Shown: in pieces, positions 31,120-48,605 of the stretch
How the letters are laid out: each line of letters opens with the position of its first letter
How positions within the stretch are numbered: the first letter of the stretch is position 1
Assembly: GCA_018831195.1 (NCBI GenBank)
Contig: JAHJDP010000042.1
Span: forward strand, 188,292-252,291
Length of the DNA: 64,000 bases
Direction: 5' to 3'
From: Candidatus Eisenbacteria bacterium
GTDB lineage: Bacteria > Eisenbacteria > RBG-16-71-46 > CAIMUX01 > JAHJDP01
Program-made: the position numbers and the translations under genes
The notes under the pieces: generated by a model
Told to the model about the DNA's origin: nothing
Database searches by the model: none
What the model saw: the letters and a program-made list of their open reading frames with translations, nothing else

Positions 31120-32688
31120 CTATCCCTTCCTGTAGACCATGACGGAGCTGCCGACCTTGATGGTGTCACCCGGTTGCATTGTCGTTTCCTGAATCGAACG
31201 CTCGTTGACATGCGTCGGATTGGTGCCGCTGAGGTTCTTTACCATGATGGCGCCGGCGTTGTCGGCAAAGACAATGGCGTGCTCCCTCGAAACGGTCTCT
31301 TCGTTGATGACGATTTGGCATTTGGCGGCATCGCGCCCGATACGGATGCCATCGACGGTGATGGGGAAAGTATTGCCCTTCAGTGGACCTGTTTGCACAA
31401 CAAGCTGGCCGAGATCGGCGCCGGCCTTCGGTTTTTTGGCCACCGCCGCCGCGCCTCCACCACGGCGGGTCCGCATGATACCTGTAACGATGAGGATGAT
31501 TCCGATAAGGACGACCAGACCGATAATGAGCGTCGTTGTGGAAAAGCCGCCGCTTTCGCCGCCGCCGCCGCCCGACATCGCCTCACGCTGGAGCTTGGTC
31601 GCATCTTGAAGATCGGGCATCAACCGAAGGACTTCGGTGAACTTCGCAATGGCTTCCTGCGATTTTCCCTGATAGTACAAGTTTAGTGCGTCGGCCCAGG
31701 CTCGATCAAAGAGACTCGGGCTCGTATCAACGCCGGCCGCGCGGATGAATTCCTTCACGACATTGGAAGGGACGGCGAAGTTAAATCCCTGAATCGCCTG
31801 CTGTCCCTGATGAATGCTGATAAAGGTCGCCATCCCGATCACGTCGCCGTTGTCGTTGAAGACAGGACCGCCGCTGTTACCCCAGGTCACCGGAGCGTCG
31901 AATTGCAGAACATTGCTTCCCTTGACATCGAGTTTGAGGCTCGAGATCTGCCCCGTTGTGAAGCTCGCTTCCAGAACCGATTCAGGATTCAGGTAGGTGT
32001 GTTCCATGACGACGCCTGGATAACCGGCGACGTGTACGGCGGCGCCGATCTGCATGGTTCCCGAATCACCGATGCGGACCGTGGGAAGATCACGCCCTTC
32101 GATTTTTAGGACTGCAACATCCTTGCCGGTTTCCCAGGATTCCCAGGGAATCGAAGTCTTCCCCGGACGTCCGCTCATGGGAGGACTAAACTCCTTCACC
32201 TCCGCGGAATATTTCTTCCAATTCTGAAGATAGACGTCCAAATCCTTTTTGACGGAAATCTCAGCCGCAGAAAGAAACTGCTGGAAGAGGGCGACCTTCT
32301 CCTCGCTGGTCAATGGGCGGCCTTGCTTCTGTTCCGCTCCCGGAAAGACATTTTCCTCCAGGGCCCGCCACAACATCTGAGACTTCAATTGCTCATCGTT
32401 ATTGTCGTGGTAGGTATCGACGACATGCCCGTTGGTCACGAGATATCCGTCGGCCGAGATAATCCATCCCGATCCCGAGCTGCTCATTTGGGTCTGCATT
32501 TCAATCGGACCCTGCTCGGTCTGAATCGTGATTTGGGCTTGAACGGACAGCCAAACCAAGACAACCGCCGGCTTGACGGAGTAATAGAGATGTTGACGCT
32601 GCTGGGCGTCGAGATCCGCATCAGCCGTTTGGAATGCGAAAAGTCCAAGGATGATTAAAGTGAGCGTGATTCCCAGCTTCCGGAACAT
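31120..32688 (-). CDS. Membrane-spanning trypsin-like protease with cytoplasmic FHA domain (copy 1)
   Basis: A 522-residue protein. A signal sequence (MFRKLGITLTLIILGLFAFQ) is followed by a trypsin/HtrA-like periplasmic protease with His88 (VTNGHVVD), Asp190 (GKDVAVLKIEG) and Ser272 (WGNSGGPVF). A helical, TPR-like stretch (AWADALNLYYQGKSQEAIAKF) leads to a membrane helix at ~383-404, and a cytoplasmic FHA domain (428-520) has Arg452, Ser467-Arg-x-His470 and the NxxGT...N pattern. FHA domains bind phosphothreonine, so kinase signals inside could control proteolysis outside. The start at 32688 has AAGGAGG. It is a close tandem paralogue of the next gene upstream and lacks a PDZ domain. Confidence 0.9.
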   Translation of the reverse strand: MFRKLGITLTLIILGLFAFQTADADLDAQQRQHLYYSVKPAVVLVWLSVQAQITIQTEQGPIEMQTQMSSSGSGWIISADGYLVTNGHVVDTYHDNNDEQLKSQMLWRALEENVFPGAEQKQGRPLTSEEKVALFQQFLSAAEISVKKDLDVYLQNWKKYSAEVKEFSPPMSGRPGKTSIPWESWETGKDVAVLKIEGRDLPTVRIGDSGTMQIGAAVHVAGYPGVVMEHTYLNPESVLEASFTTGQISSLKLDVKGSNVLQFDAPVTWGNSGGPVFNDNGDVIGMATFISIHQGQQAIQGFNFAVPSNVVKEFIRAAGVDTSPSLFDRAWADALNLYYQGKSQEAIAKFTEVLRLMPDLQDATKLQREAMSGGGGGESGGFSTTTLIIGLVVLIGIILIVTGIMRTRRGGGAAAVAKKPKAGADLGQLVVQTGPLKGNTFPITVDGIRIGRDAAKCQIVINEETVSREHAIVFADNAGAIMVKNLSGTNPTHVNERSIQETTMQPGDTIKVGSSVMVYRKG

Positions 32689-32740
32689 GTCGGCCTCCTT
32701 CCTTGGTTCATTGAGGTGCATAGGCCCTGGAGTTCTTCAT

Positions 32741-34306
32741 CTATGAGCTTTGATAAACCAGGACCGAGGTGCCGATCTTGATCGCATCTCCCGGCTTGAT
32801 GACCGATTCCTGGATGGGCCGGTCATTCAAGTGAGTGGGGTTCGTTCCACTGAGATTCTTGATCATGACCTCGCCGCTATCCGACAGATAGATGAAGGCT
32901 TGCTCCCGCGAGATCGTCTCTTCGCTCAAGACGATTTTGCATTTTTGTGGATCGCGCCCGATGCGGATCCCTTCCGCCGTCATTGGAAAGCGGTTCCCCG
33001 CCAGCGGCCCTTCCCGGACGATGATCTGCCCCATCTCTTTGCCTGCCTTGGGTTTTTTCACGGCGGCCTTTCCTCCCGATCCTTTGCTCCGCATCAAACC
33101 GACAACAACAAGAATGATTCCAAGAATAATGACCAGGCCGATGATCATAGTTGTTGTTGAGAGACCGCCGCCACCGCCGCCGGCAGGGGCCGACATCGCC
33201 TCTCTCTGCAATTTGACGGCATCCGGCAGATCCGGCATCAGCCGGAGAGCTTCATCGAATTTTGCGATGGCTTTGTTCTTTTTACCGGAATAGTAAAGTT
33301 GAAGCGCATCACTCCATGTTCTATCAAAAAGGCTCGGGCTTGTATCAACACCGGCGGCGCGAACAAATTCCCGCACGACATTGGAAGGGACGGCGAAATT
33401 AAATCCCTGAATGGCCTGGGTGCCCTGGTGAATAGAGCCGAAGGTCGCCATCCCGATGACTTGGCCTTCATCATTGAAAACGGGACCACCGCTGTTGCCC
33501 CAAGTTGTCGATGCGTCCATTTGGAGAACATTACTGCCCTTGACATCCAGCTTGAGGCTGGAGATCTGTCCTCGTGTAAAGCTCGCTTCCAAGACCGATT
33601 CAGGATTGAGGTAGATGTGTTGCATGACGACGCCGGGATAACCGGCGACGTGAACAGTGGCGCCCAATTGAACCGTTCCGGAATCGCCGATTCGAACGGT
33701 AGGGAGATCCCGTCCTTCAATTTTTAAGATGGCGACATCTTTGCCGGTTTCGCTGCTGTCCCAAGGAAGAGCCAGCTTGCCGGCCTGTCCACTCATCGGC
33801 GGGCTATATTCCTTGACCTCGGCGGCGTACTTCTTCCAGTTCTGAAGATAGACGCTGAGGTCTTTCTTTAGGGTGATCTCCGATTGGGGCAGGAATGCCT
33901 GGAATAGCGCGAACTTCTCTTCATCAGTGAATTGCCGGCCTTCTTTTGCCTCAAGGGATGGGAAAATGCTTTCGGCGAGCGCTTGGTATAACAATTGCCT
34001 TTTTAGCTGTTCCTCGTTGTCGTCGTGGTAAAGCTCCGCCACGTGCCCATTCGTCACGAGATATCCATCCGCGGAGATCAGCCACCCCGAGCCGGATCCG
34101 GACATTTGCGATTCCAATTGCAGCGGACCCGTTTCGGTTTGGATATTGATCTGGGCCTGCACTGAGAACCAAACCAGGACAACGGCCGGCTTTACTTTAT
34201 AATAAAGCCTTTGTCGGGCATCGGCATCGAGATCCGCCTGCACAGCCTGTGACATGAATAGGATCAAAACGACGAAAGATATGATCGTTCCCAATTTTCT
34301 AAACAT
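32741..34306 (-). CDS. Membrane-spanning trypsin-like protease with cytoplasmic FHA domain (copy 2)
   Basis: A 521-residue tandem paralogue of the preceding entry, with most positions identical in the protease core. The catalytic triad is His88, Asp190 and Ser272 (WGNSGGPVF); the Gly-rich linker and membrane helix (TTTMIIGLVIILGIILVVVGLM) are conserved. In the FHA domain Arg451 and Ser466-Arg are kept but the conserved His reads Gln (SREQAF), which may change phosphopeptide affinity. AAGGAG lies upstream of the ATG at 34306. Operon position: directly after the zinc-ribbon FHA gene and before copy 1. Proteolysis would occur in the periplasm; targets are unknown. Confidence 0.9.
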   Translation of the reverse strand: MFRKLGTIISFVVLILFMSQAVQADLDADARQRLYYKVKPAVVLVWFSVQAQINIQTETGPLQLESQMSGSGSGWLISADGYLVTNGHVAELYHDDNEEQLKRQLLYQALAESIFPSLEAKEGRQFTDEEKFALFQAFLPQSEITLKKDLSVYLQNWKKYAAEVKEYSPPMSGQAGKLALPWDSSETGKDVAILKIEGRDLPTVRIGDSGTVQLGATVHVAGYPGVVMQHIYLNPESVLEASFTRGQISSLKLDVKGSNVLQMDASTTWGNSGGPVFNDEGQVIGMATFGSIHQGTQAIQGFNFAVPSNVVREFVRAAGVDTSPSLFDRTWSDALQLYYSGKKNKAIAKFDEALRLMPDLPDAVKLQREAMSAPAGGGGGGLSTTTMIIGLVIILGIILVVVGLMRSKGSGGKAAVKKPKAGKEMGQIIVREGPLAGNRFPMTAEGIRIGRDPQKCKIVLSEETISREQAFIYLSDSGEVMIKNLSGTNPTHLNDRPIQESVIKPGDAIKIGTSVLVYQSS

Positions 34307-34346
34307 TCCTGTCTCCTTCCCGGCACAGCCTGAATCACGCATGTGA

Positions 34347-40545: not shown

Positions 40546-41889
40546 GTGACCCGATTTAAAGAAGTTAAGATACCGGAAGGCGATCTCATTGAAATCAAGA
40601 ATGGGAAGTTGAGTATCGGAGATCGGCCGATCATCGGCTATTTAAGGGGGGATGGGATCGGCCTCGATATAACACCCGCCATGCAAATGGTCGTCGATGC
40701 GGCGATTGAAAAGGCCTACGGCGGGAAACGATCGATTGCCTGGTGTCCGCTGTATGCCGGATTGGAAGGTTTGCAGAGATACGGCAGCGAATTCCCCGAG
40801 GAGACGGTGGATGCGATCCGTCATTTGAAAATCGCGATCAAGGGGCCCTTCACAACGCCCATTGGGGAAGAGACCCATGTCTGTCTCCATTGCGCCCATC
40901 AGCAATATCATGCGGGGACCTGCGATAAATGCAAAAAGGATGACGGGGTTTGTGAGAGATTCCGTTCGATCAATGTGCGTTTCCGCCAGCATCTTGATCT
41001 CTATGCTTGTGTGCGGCCGATTCGCTATATTGAAGGCGTTCCTTGTCCGAACAAATATGCCGATAAAGTAAACTTTATCATTTTCCGCGAGAATACTGAA
41101 GATGTCTATGCCGGCTATGATTTTGAGAAGGGCAGTGATATCGCCATGGCGATTATCGATCTCATCAAGGAGAAGACAGGACGTGAGATCCGGCCGGATT
41201 CAGGTATCGGGATCAAGCCGATCTCCCTTTTCGGCACGACGCGGCTTGTACGAAAAGCGATCCAATGGGCCGTCGATCGGAAGCTTTCCTCTGTCACCAT
41301 AGTACATAAGGGAAACATCATGAAGTTTACCGAGGGGTCGTTCTGCAAATGGGGATATGAGCTGGCCGCGAAGGAATTCGGCGATTGTACCCTATCCGAG
41401 AAGACTCTCTGGGATGAACTCGACGGCAAGATGCCGGCAGGCAAGATCCTGATCAAGGACCGGATCGCCGATTCGATCTTCCAGCAGATCCAGACACGGC
41501 CCGACGAGTACAGCGTCATGGCCCTGCCCAATCTAAACGGCGACTATCTTTCGGATGCCAGTATTGCGCTGGTCGGAGGCCTGGGTCTTGGACCGGGGGC
41601 GAATATGTCTGATGATATCGCGCTCTTCGAAGCGACGCACGGCACGGCCCCGAAGTACACTGGAATGGATAAAGTCAATCCGGGATCCCTCATCCTTTCC
41701 GCCGTAATGATGCTCGAGCATATGGCCTGGGATGAGGCCGCCCGTCTTATCGACAAGGGTATGGCCGCCGCCATCAAAAATGGTGTCGTCACCTATGATC
41801 TGGCGCGTCTCATGCAGCAGGAGGGCCGCAAGGATGTCAACGAAGTCTCCTGTTCGGGGTTCGGGAGGGCGATTGTTGAAAGGATGTAA
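40546..41889 (+). CDS. icd: NADP-type isocitrate dehydrogenase with zinc-ribbon-like insertion
   Basis: A 447-residue TCA-cycle enzyme converting isocitrate to 2-oxoglutarate. It closely follows the E. coli Icd sequence pattern: substrate loop RSINVRFR (Ser141 corresponds to E. coli Ser113), YACVRPIRY, FRENTEDVYAG, VHKGNIMKFTEG and NLNGDYLSDA. The NADP-selective ATHGTAPKY...V and TYDLARL (Lys/Tyr, Val, Tyr, Arg) are also kept. Unusual: about 26 extra residues between TTPIGEE and RSINV contain Cys113-x-x-Cys116, Cys126-x-x-Cys129 and Cys136, a zinc-ribbon spacing absent from E. coli Icd. GTG start at 40546 with AGGAGG 6-7 nt upstream. A TACAAT -10 box at 40497-40502 lacks a good -35. Confidence 0.95.
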   Translation: MTRFKEVKIPEGDLIEIKNGKLSIGDRPIIGYLRGDGIGLDITPAMQMVVDAAIEKAYGGKRSIAWCPLYAGLEGLQRYGSEFPEETVDAIRHLKIAIKGPFTTPIGEETHVCLHCAHQQYHAGTCDKCKKDDGVCERFRSINVRFRQHLDLYACVRPIRYIEGVPCPNKYADKVNFIIFRENTEDVYAGYDFEKGSDIAMAIIDLIKEKTGREIRPDSGIGIKPISLFGTTRLVRKAIQWAVDRKLSSVTIVHKGNIMKFTEGSFCKWGYELAAKEFGDCTLSEKTLWDELDGKMPAGKILIKDRIADSIFQQIQTRPDEYSVMALPNLNGDYLSDASIALVGGLGLGPGANMSDDIALFEATHGTAPKYTGMDKVNPGSLILSAVMMLEHMAWDEAARLIDKGMAAAIKNGVVTYDLARLMQQEGRKDVNEVSCSGFGRAIVERM

Positions 41890-41969: not shown

Positions 41970-42995
41970 TTATTTGCCGCCGTTTGGATCACCGGTCGTC
42001 ATAAAGTTAATCGAGGACTGCAGCAGGCCCTTGGCATATTCGGTATTGTGGATTCCAAGCGACCGGTCTTCTTCGACAAATACGAGATTATAGACGGCGC
42101 CGGAGGAATCGGCGTCGGTGACGACACGGTCGGCCATCGGTGCGCCCTCTTCATCGAGCAGGCCGGCGCCGGTCAGAATCTCCTTTAGCTCCGACAACAG
42201 CGCTTCCATCTCTTCCTGGAGGCCGTCCCGATCGAATGTCGTGATGGTGTTGCTGCCGGTATGGCAACCGGCGACGTTGCAGCCGGCGAGGTTTTCAATC
42301 TCGTGGCCTTCGTCCCGCATATTGAAACTATGACCGCCCACCGCTTCATTAATCGCGGCCGACATATGGCAATCGATGCATCCATTGAGGGCGGTGCTGG
42401 TATGGGCCGAGCTGCCGTAGCTATAACCGGCATACTCATAAGCATTCCGGCCCTCCAGCATATCCGCCTGGTTGCTGTGATGGGGCCCGAAGCGTGAATC
42501 CAGGGTCAGGGTATCAACGACGGTTGTGGAGGCATCCGACCGGCTCTGGTGGCAACGGGCGCAGAGGTTTGAAGCACCTCGATCATAGATGTCCCCATTG
42601 GCCAGGGTGACCGTGCCGGTGACGCGCACATCGAGATTTCCGTTGGTATGCGGCATATGGCAGGTGAAACACCCGATCGATGTGAAGTGGTCCCCTGACG
42701 CCGGCACCCCGGTCACGGACGCCACAAATCCTTCAGCCGTGTGGCAGGGCTCGCACGATTCGTAACGGCTCGAATAAAGCCGGTTCCGGTTGACGTTGGC
42801 GCCGGATCCATGGGTCGACTCTTCCCACTGTCTTTGTGCGGCCACGAGATCGAGTTCGTTGTCGTCGTGGCAAGTGAAGCAAGTGGAGAGCTCGGCACCG
42901 GTCTTGACTTCGGTGACCACTTCCCGATCGCATCCCGCAAAGAGAATGAGGACGGCGGCCAGTGTAAAGATTCCCAAAACACATGATTGCTTCAT
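41970..42995 (-). CDS. Multiheme c-type cytochrome lipoprotein (six heme sites)
   Basis: A 341-residue lipoprotein (signal MKQSCVLGIFTLAAVLILFAGC, lipobox Cys22) with five CxxCH motifs (CFTCH, CEPCH, CFTCH, CARCH, CIDCH) and one CxxxxCH (CNVAGCH), so up to six covalent hemes. Several distal His are present (HMPHTN, HHSN). The C-terminal ~100 residues have no heme motifs and include an acidic helix (EEMEALLSELKEIL) and a segment resembling the final helix of NapC-independent octaheme proteins. As the third gene of the operon, after a periplasmic cytochrome and an outer-membrane barrel, it is the candidate surface-exposed terminal electron carrier. ATG at 42995 with AAAGGAG; 11 bases after the barrel stop. 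Confidence 0.9.
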   Translation of the reverse strand: MKQSCVLGIFTLAAVLILFAGCDREVVTEVKTGAELSTCFTCHDDNELDLVAAQRQWEESTHGSGANVNRNRLYSSRYESCEPCHTAEGFVASVTGVPASGDHFTSIGCFTCHMPHTNGNLDVRVTGTVTLANGDIYDRGASNLCARCHQSRSDASTTVVDTLTLDSRFGPHHSNQADMLEGRNAYEYAGYSYGSSAHTSTALNGCIDCHMSAAINEAVGGHSFNMRDEGHEIENLAGCNVAGCHTGSNTITTFDRDGLQEEMEALLSELKEILTGAGLLDEEGAPMADRVVTDADSSGAVYNLVFVEEDRSLGIHNTEYAKGLLQSSINFMTTGDPNGGK

Positions 42996-43006
42996 AACCC
43001 TCTCCT

Positions 43007-44581
43007 TTAGAAACTCAGATCCCTCGAGAGACTGATTTCCCATAAGTTCGCGGTGTCGTACCGGTCACTTGCCAGAAAATCATCGAAGTTGTGAACATTA
43101 TATTTTGTGATGAAGTGATAAACTCCGGCGATGCGGACGTCGCCGGAAAAATTGAGATTGAAACTCTCTGCATCCAAATCCCGCCGGCTCCGGTAATAAA
43201 TCGCCCCGAAACCGAGAACGAGATTTCTGTACTCTTTGGTTTCCAGATTCCCTTGGAGCGTCTGTTCCGTGAACTCAAAGGCCAAGGCATCATCGATATT
43301 GTCATAGTCGCCGATGGAATATGTATATCCGGCCGACATTACCCCGAGCTTCGGGCATGTTGCGCTGAGATTGGCTGAAAACCGCTTGAAGTCGATGATG
43401 TGGTCCAGTCTTTCGTTTTCGCGGCGCCGGCTTTCATATTTGAGCGACAGCATGCCCGAATCGCAGCACCTCAAACGGCCGGTGATCCGCCAGCGATTGA
43501 GATCCTCGTCGCCAAGAAGGCGCTGGCCCTCATTGACCTCTTCGCTTCGGTTTCCAAATTCCCCCTGCAGCCGGACCCGCTCGAAAGGCAGGACCCAGCC
43601 GGAGAAATAGAAGGAGTTGGCTTCAACCTCATCCTCAAAGTCATCATTGAGGTCGTGCTGATACCCTATCGTTCCCCCGGCGGTTTTAGAGCCGGCATAT
43701 CCGGCATAAAAGGCGTTCGAAATATTGTCGGTATTGATAGTATCGTTGTCATCGCCGGCGCGGTTGAAGCGGACGTCGGCCCTCAATGAGAATCCCTTTG
43801 GAAAAGCGATATTCGCGCCTCCCCATCCAGTATTTGAGAAGATCTCCGCCTTGGAATGATCGAATCGGCTTTCATATCTCGATAAGCCGCCGAAGACTGC
43901 GAGGAACTCATATCTTGGAATGGGCGTGTACAGATTCGCTCGCAGCCGGCGGCGCGATTGGTCCCGGGTTGGGTCAATGTCGTCGGCATAATCGATCGTG
44001 CGGAGATCGACTTGGAGCATGCGGCCCTTGTGGTTCAAACGCACGCCTCCGTGAAGATCGGCCTGATTGTAATCGTGACGTATCGTGGGATCTTCATCGG
44101 CGTTGGCCAAGAGGCTGAGGTCGGATAGGGCCACCGCGGTCCCTTCCCGTTCGGTATTTGCGGCGCCGCCGTAAAACCGAATGAAAGCAGCCGGAGCAAA
44201 CCAGAATGTTCCGCCGACCTGTTCCCTCTCTGTGGAATCGAATCCCTCCGCGTCATAGATGCGGCGATAATGACGCTCGTTGATATCGAACCCGAACAGG
44301 CGGGATCGGGTGAAACCCAATTGGGCGCTTCTGTTTTCAAGTCCGATATTTCGCAGATCGGCCTTAATTCGATTTCCGTTCTTGAATGTATAATTGAACC
44401 TTTCCATCGAGAGATTGAAACCTTCATAATAATTAAAGGTGCCATAATCGACGGAGCGGTTTCCCTCTGTGTCGAGAATGAGATAACCGGCTCTTAGTGA
44501 ACCGCTTCCTGACGCTTCCCCCGCTGCCGGGAGACCGGAGAGACAAAGCACCAAAAGGAATAGAATTGCGGATCTCATCAT
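43007..44581 (-). CDS. Outer-membrane beta-barrel, MtrB/porin-cytochrome type
   Basis: A 524-residue exported protein (signal ending PAAGEA) made of about 20 or more alternating amphipathic strands with large charged loops (for example NYTFKNGNRIKADLRNIGLENRSAQLGFTRS), ending WEISLSRDLSF with the C-terminal Phe. It lies between two multiheme cytochrome genes with 11-base gaps on each side, the arrangement of porin-cytochrome conduits (MtrCAB, PioAB, Omb-Oma-Omc), where the barrel sheathes a heme wire across the outer membrane. It is shorter than MtrB (about 700 residues) and lacks the N-terminal CxxC of Shewanella MtrB. GGGAGAGAGG precedes the double ATG at 44581/44578. Confidence 0.8.
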   Translation of the reverse strand: MMRSAILFLLVLCLSGLPAAGEASGSGSLRAGYLILDTEGNRSVDYGTFNYYEGFNLSMERFNYTFKNGNRIKADLRNIGLENRSAQLGFTRSRLFGFDINERHYRRIYDAEGFDSTEREQVGGTFWFAPAAFIRFYGGAANTEREGTAVALSDLSLLANADEDPTIRHDYNQADLHGGVRLNHKGRMLQVDLRTIDYADDIDPTRDQSRRRLRANLYTPIPRYEFLAVFGGLSRYESRFDHSKAEIFSNTGWGGANIAFPKGFSLRADVRFNRAGDDNDTINTDNISNAFYAGYAGSKTAGGTIGYQHDLNDDFEDEVEANSFYFSGWVLPFERVRLQGEFGNRSEEVNEGQRLLGDEDLNRWRITGRLRCCDSGMLSLKYESRRRENERLDHIIDFKRFSANLSATCPKLGVMSAGYTYSIGDYDNIDDALAFEFTEQTLQGNLETKEYRNLVLGFGAIYYRSRRDLDAESFNLNFSGDVRIAGVYHFITKYNVHNFDDFLASDRYDTANLWEISLSRDLSF

Positions 44582-44592
44582 CGCCTCTCTCC

Positions 44593-45594
44593 CTAATTTC
44601 CAAAGGAATGGCAGCCGGATTGAAAGCAGTCGGGGAATAGTTTGACGCCCAATTGCGGATCAAGAAATCTCGAGTCTTCGTAGGAACCGTGAATCTCGCT
44701 GTGGCAATCGATGCACTGCAGCCGGACGCCGAGGCCGCTATGCGCCAGTTGGTGCCCGGGAGGGATTCCATGGCACTGATTGCAGAGACCGTTCCCTGGC
44801 TGCTTTAACAGGCGATCATTGCCCGATCCGTGAGGTTCGTGACATTCAATGCATCCGCCGCCGTTGACCAGATGTTTGTTGACGACATCGTGTTCAAAGG
44901 GGAATGGTCCCGAATGCTCGGCATGGCATTCTTGACAACGCCAATCAAAACCGATCGCGGTTAACGTGTTCCCGGCCATCCCTAATTCATGGCAATCGGT
45001 GCATTCGAGATATCCGGCTTCAAGGGGATGGGATGATCGGCGATGGAATTCAACGATGATACTATTGTGGCACCTGGCGCAGGGCCCACCCTTCATTTGT
45101 GAAAACTTTTGTGAACGCTCTTGTGAACGCTCTTGTGACGGGGCGTCGATCTCCAGCCGCCCATGGATCCCGTGGCAATCGGAACAGGTGATATTGGCGA
45201 GGGCGTGCGGGTCGGGTCCGGCCATTTGGACTTGGTGAGGCGTCATATGGCACCGGCCGCAGAGGGTCACCTGCCCGGCAGGGGTCATTTCCCTGGGGGT
45301 GGTTATGTTGTCCCGAGACGGATCTTCCAGATGGTTGCGCCAGCCCACATGACAGGACATGCAGGTCGCACCCTCGGGATCCGCGCCATCCTTCCGGACT
45401 CCGCTGATTTGGTGCGCGGTTCCAACGAGTGATTGATCCAATCCTTCGTGACACCCCAAGCACTCATCGATCTGTTCAGCAATGAGGCCGGGGGAGGAGG
45501 AGGGCTGCGCGGCCACGCTCCCCGGGCCACCCATCACCGCACAGACGAAACCCACCACGATGATCGTTGCGCCGATGCGCTTTCCGATTCGCAT
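44593..45594 (-). CDS. Periplasmic decaheme-type c cytochrome (MtrA/DmsE-like)
   Basis: A 333-residue exported protein (signal MRIGKRIGATIIVVGFVCAV...VAAQ). It has ten CxxCH motifs (CLGCH, CMSCH, CGRCH, CSDCH, CARCH, CTDCH, CQECH, CIECH, CNQCH, CIDCH) and a final CxxxxCH (CFQSGCH), hence up to eleven hemes. Length and the even spacing of motifs with distal His (HGIHG, HEPHGSG, HSEIHG) match MtrA/DmsE decahemes, which insert in an outer-membrane barrel. Between hemes 4 and 5 is a SQER repeat linker. First gene of the operon: it would take electrons from the periplasm. The ATG at 45594 is chosen because the signal peptide begins there; the open frame runs back to 45777 without export features. 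Confidence 0.92.
   Translation of the reverse strand: MRIGKRIGATIIVVGFVCAVMGGPGSVAAQPSSSPGLIAEQIDECLGCHEGLDQSLVGTAHQISGVRKDGADPEGATCMSCHVGWRNHLEDPSRDNITTPREMTPAGQVTLCGRCHMTPHQVQMAGPDPHALANITCSDCHGIHGRLEIDAPSQERSQERSQKFSQMKGGPCARCHNSIIVEFHRRSSHPLEAGYLECTDCHELGMAGNTLTAIGFDWRCQECHAEHSGPFPFEHDVVNKHLVNGGGCIECHEPHGSGNDRLLKQPGNGLCNQCHGIPPGHQLAHSGLGVRLQCIDCHSEIHGSYEDSRFLDPQLGVKLFPDCFQSGCHSFGN
45109..45132. repeat. Two perfect 12-bp tandem copies
   Basis: TTGTGAACGCTC occurs twice back to back and is followed by a partial third copy (TTGTGAC). On the coding (minus) strand it encodes the SQERSQERSQ linker between hemes 4 and 5 of the periplasmic cytochrome. Confidence 0.8.
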
Positions 45595-45974
45595 AGGTAC
45601 CTCACTCTGGCGACCAACGGACAATAAGTTCATTTCATGATATGCAAAGAGCTGGTGTCGACGCACAAGATAGATATCGTCAGAAGATCGTGGTTCATTA
45701 GAAATGACTAGTATTTTAATAGGATATAACCAACACGCCTTCAGTGGGCAATTATACGGCAAGAGGAAGAAATACAATTAATATTTTAAATTTCAATAAC
45801 CGATAACCCACTGAATAGCTGCTAACTGGATCTAGTAATATGACTTATTGAGATCTGGTCCTGATATCCTCTCATTCGATCGAGGGGGAGGGATCAGCAA
45901 TAAATTGAGCGGGGGGGGCTTCTCTAACTACACTGGGGCTGGAGAGTTATGAACTGATCGCGGAGGGGAGCGAT
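45595..45974. other. 380-base divergent, AT-rich intergenic region
   Basis: It separates the cytochrome operon (minus) from the SppA-like gene (plus). It is clearly richer in A/T than the rest of the window (45700-45850 especially), typical of promoter DNA. I see a minus-strand -10 box at 45751-45756 and, near the right end, the ribosome site GGAGGGGAG of the plus gene. No credible ORF. Confidence 0.5.
45751..45777 (-). promoter_or_regulatory. Candidate promoter of the porin-cytochrome operon
   Basis: On the minus strand a perfect TATAAT (45756-45751) is preceded, 15 bases upstream, by TTGTAT (45777-45772). The spacing is shorter than the 17-nt optimum, so an activator may be needed. The predicted leader is about 150 nt. 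Confidence 0.4.
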
Positions 45975-48605
45975 ATGAAACAAATCCGGATTTCAAGATT
46001 TTGCGGCCGACCGGCCGTCCGCCTTTGCCTCAGGCTCATGGTCATGACGGTCCTTCTCCTCCCGCTTTTCCACACCCCGGTTCCCGCGGACCATCTGGTG
46101 GGGGAGGGGCTTCTCGCGCGCATCGCCGCGGTCGCTCTGGAGGATGATGCCGGCGCCAATCTAATCAATCCGGCGGGTCTGGGATGGTCGACCGGGCAGG
46201 ATCTCTACCTGATCCTGAGTGAGTTGCACCGGCAAGTGCCCTCACCGGCCGGCACGGTGGGATCTCCGTCGGTCGATGATCAACGGCGGCGTCTGCTTGG
46301 GGCTGGAGGGCAATATAGAAGAGTGGGAATAGCCTTTGAACGCCTTGATAGCGGCGGCCGTTCCCGTGTCGACCAGTGGACGCTGGGGTTTTCACAATCG
46401 ATGCGGCGTTGGCTTTCGACCGGATACAGTCTATCAAGGCTTCATGTCGGTGACATCTCGGCCTGGCGCTTCAAGGTGGGACTGCTGGCCCGCCCGCATG
46501 ACGCCGTTTCGATTGGTTGTACTATCTCAGACCTATTTCAATCCCGTATCGACCCCGATGTCCTGCATCGTTCGTATCGCGCGGGCCTCGGCCTTCGTCC
46601 CCTGCCGGGCCGATTGAGGGAGAGATGGACCTTGTTTGCGGAGATCGAGGGGGATGAGCAAGAAAAATGGATCGATGACGCCATCCTCGCCACCGGCTTC
46701 CGCATAGAGCCGTTATCCGGCATCCATCTCTCAGCCGCCCTCTCCAATCCCTTGAATGAGTTCGGCGACGATCCCCAATTCCATGTCGGTCTGGCGGTTC
46801 AGTTTTCGACCTCCCGGATCGAAGGCGTTTATGGGTGGCATGCCGATGATGACACGACGCGCTCCGCCGGCGGCGCCTTGCATCTGCTGGGCGACCGTCC
46901 ACGGACACTCTCCAAAAACCCTGTTTTTACCTCTCTGGCGTTGAGGGGATCCTTGTCGGATGAAACCCGAAGCGGGATCCCCCTGCCGATCCCCTTTGTT
47001 GGGGGAGGGCGCCGCACCGGTGTCGGTTCGATCATGACCGCGCTGAAAAATGCCCGCGAGGATTCCGACATCCGCGGTGTTTTGTTAAAGATTGGATCCG
47101 TCTCCGGCGGCAGCCATCTGGACGAGATCCGTCATCAGATCCAACAGATTCAGGCGTTGGGCAAACCGGTCATAGCCTATATCGAAGAGGGGGGATCGCA
47201 TAACGGATACGGTCTCGCGACGGCGTGCGACGGTATTGTACTGGCCCCCGGGTCCGCTCTTTATCTGCTGGGTGTGCGCTCCGACATCCTCTATCTCGGC
47301 GAGATGATGGACAGTCTCGGCATCGGGATGAGCAGGATTGCGAGTGGGGAATTCAAAACAGCTTATGAGCGATACGAGCTGGGTTCAGCGAGCCCCGGTT
47401 TTCGTGAGGAGATGGAAGCGCTCTTCGATGATCACTGGTCCCGGTGGGTTGAGGCGGTCGCCGCCGGCCGGAATCTTGATCCCGCAAGGGTGCGCGAGCT
47501 GGCGGATGGCCGCGTTCTGAGAGCCGAGGAGGCCATGATCGCCGGCCTGGTCGATTCGGTGGGAACGGTCGATCTGGCCCGGCGGTGGCTCTCTACTATG
47601 GCCGGCATGGATGATGGGGAAGCGCCGCTGACGAGCACCATCCATCGGCGCCTTCGGCGGACCGCTTGGGGGCCGCAGCCCATCGTTGCCGTCTATTACA
47701 TGAATGGTTTTGTTTCCGTCGGTTCCTCGCGCCGCCCGATCTTTGGGGACAAGATTCTGGGTGCTGATACGGTTCGGCGGGATTTGAAGGCGCTGGCGGC
47801 GAACAAGGCGGTCAAGGCGGTCGTCCTGCGCGTCGAATCGGGTGGAGGTTTGGGGCTCGGCGGAACTTTGATCCGCGAGGCGGTCCTGGATCTCAAGGCC
47901 TCCGGCAAGCCGGTTATCGTCTCGATGGGGCGTGTGGCCGCTTCCGCCGCCTATCATTTCTCGGCGGCGGCCGATTATCTCTTCGCTTCCCCAGGCACCT
48001 ACACCGGCTCGATCGGCGTCATCCTGGTTCGCCCCGATTATGCCGGGCTCCTCAATCGTCTGCATATCCACCCCGAGACGATTGAGAGGGGCGACCGGAT
48101 GGGTTTGTGGACCCAGGTCCGACCGCTGACGGATGAAGAGCGGGAGATGGCCGGGGGGTGGGTTCGGGCCGAGTACGAAGATTTTATTGCCGATGTCGCC
48201 GAAGATCGCGCGATGACGCCGGATTCTGTGAACAGTATCGCCAAGGGGCGGGTTTGGACCGGCCGGCAGGCGTTGGAGCGGGGTCTGATCGACGAGATCG
48301 GCGGGCTGGAGGATGCGATAGGAGCGGCGCGTGAGAGGGCCGGTCTTTCCGCGAGGGCGAAGATTGTCCCGATCGTCCGCCCCAGCCACCGTTCCATCAT
48401 GAATCTCGCCCGGGGATTTCTATTCAGGACGGTTTGGGGCGATCAAGAATCGGCGGCCGAAGAATCCCGCTTTTGGGCATCCGCCGGTCTTATACCCGGC
48501 ACAGAAATTTTAATCGACCCCGCTTCTTTGTTTCCACATGGGATGGGAAGCTCTATCCTTCCCCTTGAGTATTCCCCGATTGGAGATCTGCTACTTAAAG
48601 AATGA
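45975..48605 (+). CDS. SppA-type signal-peptide peptidase with outer-membrane-protein-like N-terminal region
   Basis: An 876-residue protein. After a signal peptide, residues ~40-310 resemble PorV/UPF0164-like barrels (LINPAGLGW, then alternating strands such as VGIAFERLDSGGRSRVDQWTLGFSQ). Residues ~320-860 hold two S49 domains as in E. coli 67-kDa SppA. The catalytic Lys lies in the first (ASGEFKTAYERYE), the Ser nucleophile in the second (MGRVAASAAYHFSAA), and GTYTGSIGVI and ALERGLIDEIGG complete it. SppA normally has an N-terminal membrane helix and cleaves leftover signal peptides; here the front end suggests outer-membrane or periplasmic action. GGAGGGG precedes the ATG. It is followed by a Yip1-like membrane gene after 17 bases. 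Confidence 0.88.
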   Translation: MKQIRISRFCGRPAVRLCLRLMVMTVLLLPLFHTPVPADHLVGEGLLARIAAVALEDDAGANLINPAGLGWSTGQDLYLILSELHRQVPSPAGTVGSPSVDDQRRRLLGAGGQYRRVGIAFERLDSGGRSRVDQWTLGFSQSMRRWLSTGYSLSRLHVGDISAWRFKVGLLARPHDAVSIGCTISDLFQSRIDPDVLHRSYRAGLGLRPLPGRLRERWTLFAEIEGDEQEKWIDDAILATGFRIEPLSGIHLSAALSNPLNEFGDDPQFHVGLAVQFSTSRIEGVYGWHADDDTTRSAGGALHLLGDRPRTLSKNPVFTSLALRGSLSDETRSGIPLPIPFVGGGRRTGVGSIMTALKNAREDSDIRGVLLKIGSVSGGSHLDEIRHQIQQIQALGKPVIAYIEEGGSHNGYGLATACDGIVLAPGSALYLLGVRSDILYLGEMMDSLGIGMSRIASGEFKTAYERYELGSASPGFREEMEALFDDHWSRWVEAVAAGRNLDPARVRELADGRVLRAEEAMIAGLVDSVGTVDLARRWLSTMAGMDDGEAPLTSTIHRRLRRTAWGPQPIVAVYYMNGFVSVGSSRRPIFGDKILGADTVRRDLKALAANKAVKAVVLRVESGGGLGLGGTLIREAVLDLKASGKPVIVSMGRVAASAAYHFSAAADYLFASPGTYTGSIGVILVRPDYAGLLNRLHIHPETIERGDRMGLWTQVRPLTDEEREMAGGWVRAEYEDFIADVAEDRAMTPDSVNSIAKGRVWTGRQALERGLIDEIGGLEDAIGAARERAGLSARAKIVPIVRPSHRSIMNLARGFLFRTVWGDQESAAEESRFWASAGLIPGTEILIDPASLFPHGMGSSILPLEYSPIGDLLLKE

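Follow-up and report, generated by a model that had tools for sequence, protein, structure and literature searches.

The 64,000-nucleotide stretch analysed here (the window; Candidatus Eisenbacteria bacterium, contig JAHJDP010000042.1) contains a three-gene operon, cytA–barrel–cytC, at positions 41970-45594, with all genes on the minus strand and 11-base gaps between neighbours. Analysis of the operon and its relatives indicates that it probably encodes a trans-outer-membrane electron conduit of a divergent Mtr type. By computation, cytA is homologous to MtrA and the barrel to MtrB, the genes are linked, cytA combines eleven heme motifs with eleven conserved extra histidines, and cytC shows affinity to NrfA and OcwA. 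An earlier note, made from the letters of this DNA, had described the three genes, their gaps and their heme-motif counts, and coordinates, strand, gaps and counts were all confirmed. Its conduit interpretation is supported by the MtrA homology, the MtrB-fold barrel and the strict three-gene linkage. It had recognised no published family to which the operon clearly belonged; this did not hold, as both cytA and the barrel fall within the MtrA-MtrB/PioA-PioB/DmsE-DmsF superfamily, not within the Omb/Oma/Omc type. The three genes are as follows.

44593-45594, minus strand: cytA, exported MtrA/DmsE-family cytochrome of 333 amino acids, with ten CxxCH motifs and one CxxxxCH; eleven hemes predicted
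43007-44578, minus strand: barrel, MtrB-like outer-membrane barrel, modelled with 26 strands and short acidic outer loops; alternative ATG at 44581
41970-42995, minus strand: cytC, predicted lipoprotein hexaheme cytochrome of 341 amino acids, NrfA/OcwA/OmhA superfamily; ATG at 42995

The cytA gene runs from an ATG at 45594 to a stop at 44593 and begins with the signal sequence MRIGKRIGATIIVVGFVCAVMGGPGSVAAQ. The barrel is 523-524 amino acids long, depending on whether the start at 44578 or 44581 is used, and cytC contains five CxxCH motifs, CNVAGCH and a lipobox, LFAGC. Shuffled cytA and cytC sequences averaged 0.11 and 0.02 CxxCH motifs, respectively, with maxima of 4 and 2 in 20,000 trials. 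A scan of all frames found no further reading frame in the window with at least two CxxCH.

Among NCBIfam models, cytA scored best with TIGR03508 (DmsE family; E = 1.6e-42, 145.8 bits, under the curated 192.2), and it matched the GSU2203 family NF041028 at E = 6.9e-35, also under the curated cut-off. The sole relative with E < 0.01 among PDB sequences was 6R2Q chain A (E = 3.6e-23), labelled cystathionine beta-synthase in the file and, by its entry, MtrA of the Mtr complex; a cytA profile matched this chain at E = 2.1e-47. When 14 cytA homologues were aligned with 10 ten-heme MtrAs, namely 6R2Q and nine from the same class, the cytA group matched every one of the ten MtrA heme motifs and had one motif more.

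44608-44628, minus strand: eleventh heme motif CFQSGCH at the cytA C-terminus; CxxxxCH in 14/14 relatives and 0/10 MtrAs

The ten hemes of the A subunit in MtrCAB proper were therefore not what was found, eleven motifs being present in 14/14 homologues. Conserved histidines outside the motifs also number eleven in the cytA group, against ten in MtrA: nine MtrA positions are retained, one (after heme 6) is lost, and two (H120 and H285) are gained. Nine of the eleven occur in 14/14 rows, and H61 and H88 in 13/14, one row being N-terminally truncated. With as many candidate distal ligands as motifs, cytA would be expected to carry eleven bis-His hemes. In a maximum-likelihood tree, a long branch (support 98/99) parts the 14 homologues from the MtrAs. 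On these sequence comparisons, cytA is an MtrA/DmsE homologue and not an Oma-type protein. In MtrA, the C-terminus and heme 10 point outwards (PMC12203936; PMC7198977), and by analogy the eleventh heme of cytA should therefore extend the wire at its outer end.

An AlphaFold2 model of the barrel, built from 15 homologues, has 26 strands (predicted local distance difference test score, pLDDT, 86.1; predicted template-modelling score, pTM, 0.73). The top PDB match of this model in Foldseek was MtrB, 6R2Q chain B (E = 1.9e-16, template-modelling (TM) score 0.77 by query length), and the next best were TonB-dependent receptors, with TM ~0.47. The profile search that the earlier note had asked for was successful in part: the window protein alone matched no family, whereas the barrel profile aligned to nine MtrBs of the class with E = 9.9e-15 (hhalign) and some relatives matched MtrB-type models. 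Counted at E up to 0.1, matches were found to PF11854 for 7/15 homologues (best 9.9e-6), to the GSU2204 family NF041027 for 6/15 (best 3.9e-9) and to TIGR03509 for 1/15 (0.00049). Strands 1-4 of the model are shorter than the remaining 22 (means of 12 and 15 residues), periplasmic turns span 2-7 residues, and the outer loops, 85 residues in all, carry a net charge of -21. For MtrB itself, Edwards et al. describe strands 1-4 as short, the periplasmic turns as tight and the outer surface as negative (PMC7198977). Judged by its modelled fold, the profile–profile match and the family matches of its relatives, the barrel is a remote MtrB.

The barrel is indeed short (~520 amino acids), as had been noted before, because its outer loops are short and not because it has fewer strands. 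The 26 strands and the best PDB match to MtrB predict a lumen of MtrB size by homology, in answer to the earlier concern that the pore might be unable to hold the cytochrome. The long, folded outer loops of MtrB narrow the pore and trap MtrA; we infer that this capping may here fall to cytC and to the C-terminal portion of cytA. A small-pore barrel of the porin–cytochrome complex (Pcc) type was also considered, and is ruled out by the strand count.

A scan of a genome collection with the cytA profile identified 12 loci of the operon type, in Zixiibacteriota, Eisenbacteria, Krumholzibacteriia, Gemmatimonadota and others. The order cytA–barrel–cytC was kept in 12/12, so that the survey of related genomes proposed in the earlier note found the three genes consistently linked. 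A thirteenth, distant match (L069) has no such barrel. Of the two components that mark Mtr/Pio/Dms systems, an MtrA/DmsE-family cytochrome is present, as is an MtrB/PioB-family barrel, recognised by fold, profile match and relatives. Within the window's class, 5/47 genomes hold all or part of the operon, each including the barrel, and 11 others hold a classical MtrB, beside a ten-heme MtrA where that flank could be seen. No strong MtrB match was present in the operon-bearing genomes examined. Mutual exclusion of the two barrels (5 and 11 of 47, no overlap) was suggestive, though not significant, the chance of no overlap being ~0.25.

The window copy is most similar to Zixiibacteriota copies L057 and L058, with identities of 46-47% for cytA, 39-41% for the barrel and 55% for cytC; the values for copies of its own class are 33-35%, 18-25% and 29-46%. 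In the cytA tree it groups with the Zixiibacteriota copies at 100/99. Because the window copy is nearer to Zixiibacteriota than to its own class, these comparisons suggest that the operon was transferred between Eisenbacteria-class and Zixiibacteriota lineages. Composition gave no sign of recent transfer.

The third gene product differs from the outer cytochrome of MtrCAB. The top PDB matches of a cytC profile (12 homologues) were 6I5B (5.9e-12) and 6QVM (9.8e-7), the latter of which we take to be OmhA of Carboxydothermus ferrireducens (the library row reads 'Multiheme cytochrome cf'). NrfA and octaheme nitrite reductases matched next, over a shorter stretch. 6I5B is OcwA of Thermincola (PMC6703420), and OmhA is a surface reductase (PMC7829351, in which the code 6QVM does not appear). 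The profile alignment pairs hemes 2-6 of cytC with hemes 5-9 of OcwA. Residues 380/381 of OcwA form a His-His pair at its five-coordinate heme 5 (PMC6703420); with an assumed numbering offset of 29 residues they correspond to 351/352 in the PDB chain, where they align with the invariant His172 of cytC. From this alignment, an open heme in cytC is plausible.

42930-42944, minus strand: putative lipobox LFAGC; Cys22 and Arg24 invariant in 12 homologues
42477-42488, minus strand: GPHH motif (His172 invariant), aligned to the OcwA heme 5 His-His and to GVHH of OmhA (6QVM)
42261-42281, minus strand: sixth heme motif CNVAGCH; CxxCH in most relatives
41994-42230, minus strand: C-terminal helical region bearing a D-x-S-x-G-x-H-N motif; counterpart of the NrfA/OcwA helix bundle

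The likeness to NrfA is confined to the last two hemes and the C-terminal helices. CxxCK, the motif of the lysine-ligated heme of NrfA, is absent from cytC; some NrfAs use CxxCH. CytC does not qualify as NrfA, which would call for CxxCK or an equivalent catalytic heme and the whole pentaheme core. An OcwA/OmhA-type reductase is suggested by the profile match and the aligned HH motif, the structure model being too weak to add to this. Assignment to the MtrC family was rejected: the match to PF22113 (6.5e-8) was barely over the cut-off with partial coverage, whereas full-profile matches were to OcwA, OmhA and NrfA. No TIGR03507 (MtrC/OmcA) match over the cut-off, and hence no MtrC/OmcA-family surface decaheme, was found in the 47 class genomes. 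By sequence, cytC is not MtrC and is a member of the NrfA/OcwA/OmhA superfamily. The lipoprotein cytochrome described earlier therefore stands as a lipoprotein hexaheme, though not one of the MtrC/OmcA kind. The observation that both cytochromes end their heme series with CxxxxCH is general for cytA; in cytC it is a local spelling, restricted among the 12 to the window and L058 copies, the remainder having CxxCH. The third gene varies between loci, with 12 CxxCH and 2 CxxxxCH in L057, 16 CxxCH in L059 (both longer) and 8 CxxCH in L061.

Solo cytC-like six-heme lipoproteins with collagen-like GxxGxx stalks were also observed in three order-mates (L102:8188-9375, L103:3462-4568 and L104:2303-3385), and a similar stalked six-heme lipoprotein gene lies shortly downstream of the operon in L061 (L061:9939-10955). 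Neither a barrel nor an MtrA adjoins the solo six-heme lipoproteins of the order-mates, some of which are stalked.

In the mechanism that we propose, cytA would be an elongated eleven-heme MtrA-type wire inserted in the MtrB-type barrel; heme 1 would lie on the periplasmic side and the C-terminus at the outer face, where the added heme would lengthen the wire. Lipid-anchored cytC would dock at the outer face in the place of MtrC and pass electrons outwards to an extracellular acceptor, either a mineral or a small molecule. The supply would probably run from quinol through an NrfH/NapC-like membrane cytochrome and a small tetraheme c554-like cytochrome to cytA. Genes for both adjoin the operon in L058, a tetraheme gene lies beside it in L057, and an NrfH-like gene in L067. 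In the window's genome, homologues of the tetraheme and NrfH-like proteins (40% and 37% identity to L058, respectively) stand side by side in a second cytochrome cluster. A quinol-to-surface route through these cytochromes is plausible; a class-wide link between the operon and the NrfH-like gene was tested, and fails.

The second cluster (G000:C65, ~44000-72000) also encodes a 17-heme HmcA-like protein, a 1038-residue protein with 42 CxxCH, an 11-heme protein with a cytochrome b561/formate-dehydrogenase-gamma-like domain, a 19-heme b561-type membrane protein, and a 725-residue protein with no family match that is possibly a barrel. Elsewhere in the same genome are menaquinone reductase (Qrc)-like genes (L043:3813-6713, G000:C34; QrcA 7.7e-64, with a QrcB-like molybdopterin-type subunit) and an 875-residue protein with 32 CxxCH that runs to the contig edge (L038:1-2626, G000:C93).

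The operon is flanked on one side by a convergent isocitrate dehydrogenase gene (40546-41889, plus strand) and on the other by an S49-peptidase (sppA-like) gene (45975-48605, plus strand), divergent from cytA. Gene layout makes the region between the latter two the probable promoter region of the operon.

45595-45974, no strand: intergenic region between cytA and the sppA-like gene; probable promoter region, predicted from gene layout

Further away, two tandem genes at positions 31120-34342 of the window each encode a 533-residue protein carrying trypsin-like and FHA domains; with a PP2C phosphatase and a Ser/Thr kinase encoded nearby, they may form a signalling cluster.

Several results weigh against a conduit of this form. 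The window barrel by itself matched neither the family libraries nor PDB sequences, and it was modelled without cytA, so that the complex is an assembly deduced from its subunits. The AlphaFold2 model of cytC is poor (pLDDT 59), and a fold search with that unreliable model gave no significant match. At the threshold used, NrfH-like homologues were not found in 4/5 operon-bearing class genomes; the supply chain is therefore not general. The cytC lipobox has Asp at +2, which in E. coli is an inner-membrane retention signal, although sorting in this phylum may differ. This Asp, with the occurrence of cytC-like lipoproteins alone and barrel-less in order-mates, would fit a cytC that faces the periplasm, the set storing or exchanging electrons within the envelope, or a barrel with some other transport role. 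We regard this as very improbable, given the barrel fold and its strict linkage to an MtrA homologue; the collagen-like stalks of the solo proteins also suggest reach away from the membrane.

The remaining alternatives accept a conduit and concern its far end or its direction. The earlier note had held that pairing with a different redox enzyme, such as a nitrite reductase, would count against a conduit; this came true in part, cytC being of a nitrite-reductase-like superfamily, and bears on the last step. The conduit might feed a dedicated surface enzyme, cytC reducing a soluble N- or S-compound (nitrite, hydroxylamine) at an open heme, much as DmsEF feeds an extracellular dimethyl sulfoxide (DMSO) reductase. 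CytC is in the NrfA superfamily, its heme 2 is aligned to OcwA heme 5, which is five-coordinate, and its His172 to the active-site His-His, OcwA reduces nitrite and hydroxylamine, and cytA scores best with the DmsE family. However, cytC has no CxxCK and its likeness to NrfA is partial, and OcwA is a broad mineral and shuttle reductase, so that such a pocket is no proof of a dedicated substrate; we consider this version unlikely. Inward flow, with oxidation of Fe(II) or a solid donor as by PioAB or MtoAB, also has a low probability. MtrA/MtrB homologues work in both directions (PMC12203936), and genomes of Eisenbacteria and Krumholzibacteriota have been suggested to encode iron oxidation of the Cyc2 type (PMC9769843). 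Yet a gene for an outer-membrane cytochrome tends to be missing from mtr clusters that serve Fe(II) oxidation (Shi et al., PMC4245776); this operon has one at 12/12 loci, and the closest relatives of cytC are reductases.

An outward-directed Mtr-type conduit is thus preferred. More tentatively, it may form a separate lineage in uncultured phyla of the Fibrobacteres–Chlorobi–Bacteroidetes (FCB) group, combining an eleven-heme MtrA wire, a minimal-loop MtrB barrel and an OcwA-type open-heme reductase. One complex might then reduce solids and, in addition, catalyse multi-electron reductions of soluble extracellular compounds, with the added heme and cytC standing in for the long MtrB loops that trap MtrA. 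The operon extends a coherent Mtr-like conduit type to uncultured phyla (Eisenbacteria, Zixiibacteriota, Krumholzibacteriia). It suggests that the surface terminal is exchangeable for a protein of the nitrogen-cycle/Gram-positive reductase superfamily, which favours seeing extracellular electron transfer as modular. The added heme, accompanied by the gain of two histidine positions and the loss of one, is a natural test case for wire extension.

Pcc clusters had been surveyed by Shi et al. 2014 (PMC4245776) and, across three phyla, mtrCAB clusters by Baker et al. 2022 (PMC8805035); FeGenie found Geobacter-like porin-cytochrome operons in a Zixibacteria genome (PMC7005843). Surveys with MtrB and MtrC models would overlook this operon, since the window barrel matches no library model and the class has no MtrC-family protein over the cut-off. 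A limited search of open-licence literature found no published account of an eleven-heme MtrA with an OcwA-type partner, which leaves priority unproven.

Among known systems, Shewanella MtrCAB (6R2Q) shares an MtrA homologue, a 26-strand MtrB-fold barrel with acidic outer loops and a lipoprotein cytochrome. The operon differs from it in having eleven rather than ten hemes in the A subunit, a ~520-residue barrel with short outer loops, a hexaheme cytC unrelated to MtrC, and the gene order A-B-C. DmsEF and PioAB/MtoAB are built from A and B subunits that fall in the same superfamily (TIGR03508, PF11854, TIGR03509); here, however, DMSO reductase genes are absent, a heme is added and cytC is present. 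The Geobacter Omb/Oma/Omc (Pcc) systems share the layout of barrel, periplasmic cytochrome and outer cytochrome. Their barrels are predicted to have 18-22 strands and are described as having no phylogenetic relation to Mtr (PMC4245776), whereas 26 strands are modelled here and cytA is MtrA-type, not Oma-type; the operon does not qualify as Pcc. It also resembles the little-studied Geobacter pair GSU2203 (OmcK)/GSU2204, which is up-regulated with hematite and magnetite (PMC4070692): cytA and six of the 15 barrels match the respective families, though cytA remains under the cut-off and the window barrel has no match. In the sequence alignment, cytC spans the last five hemes, the HH motif and the C-terminal helices of OcwA (6I5B) and OmhA (6QVM); unlike them, it has six hemes rather than 9 or 11, and would be lipid-anchored beside a barrel rather than held in a Gram-positive cell wall.

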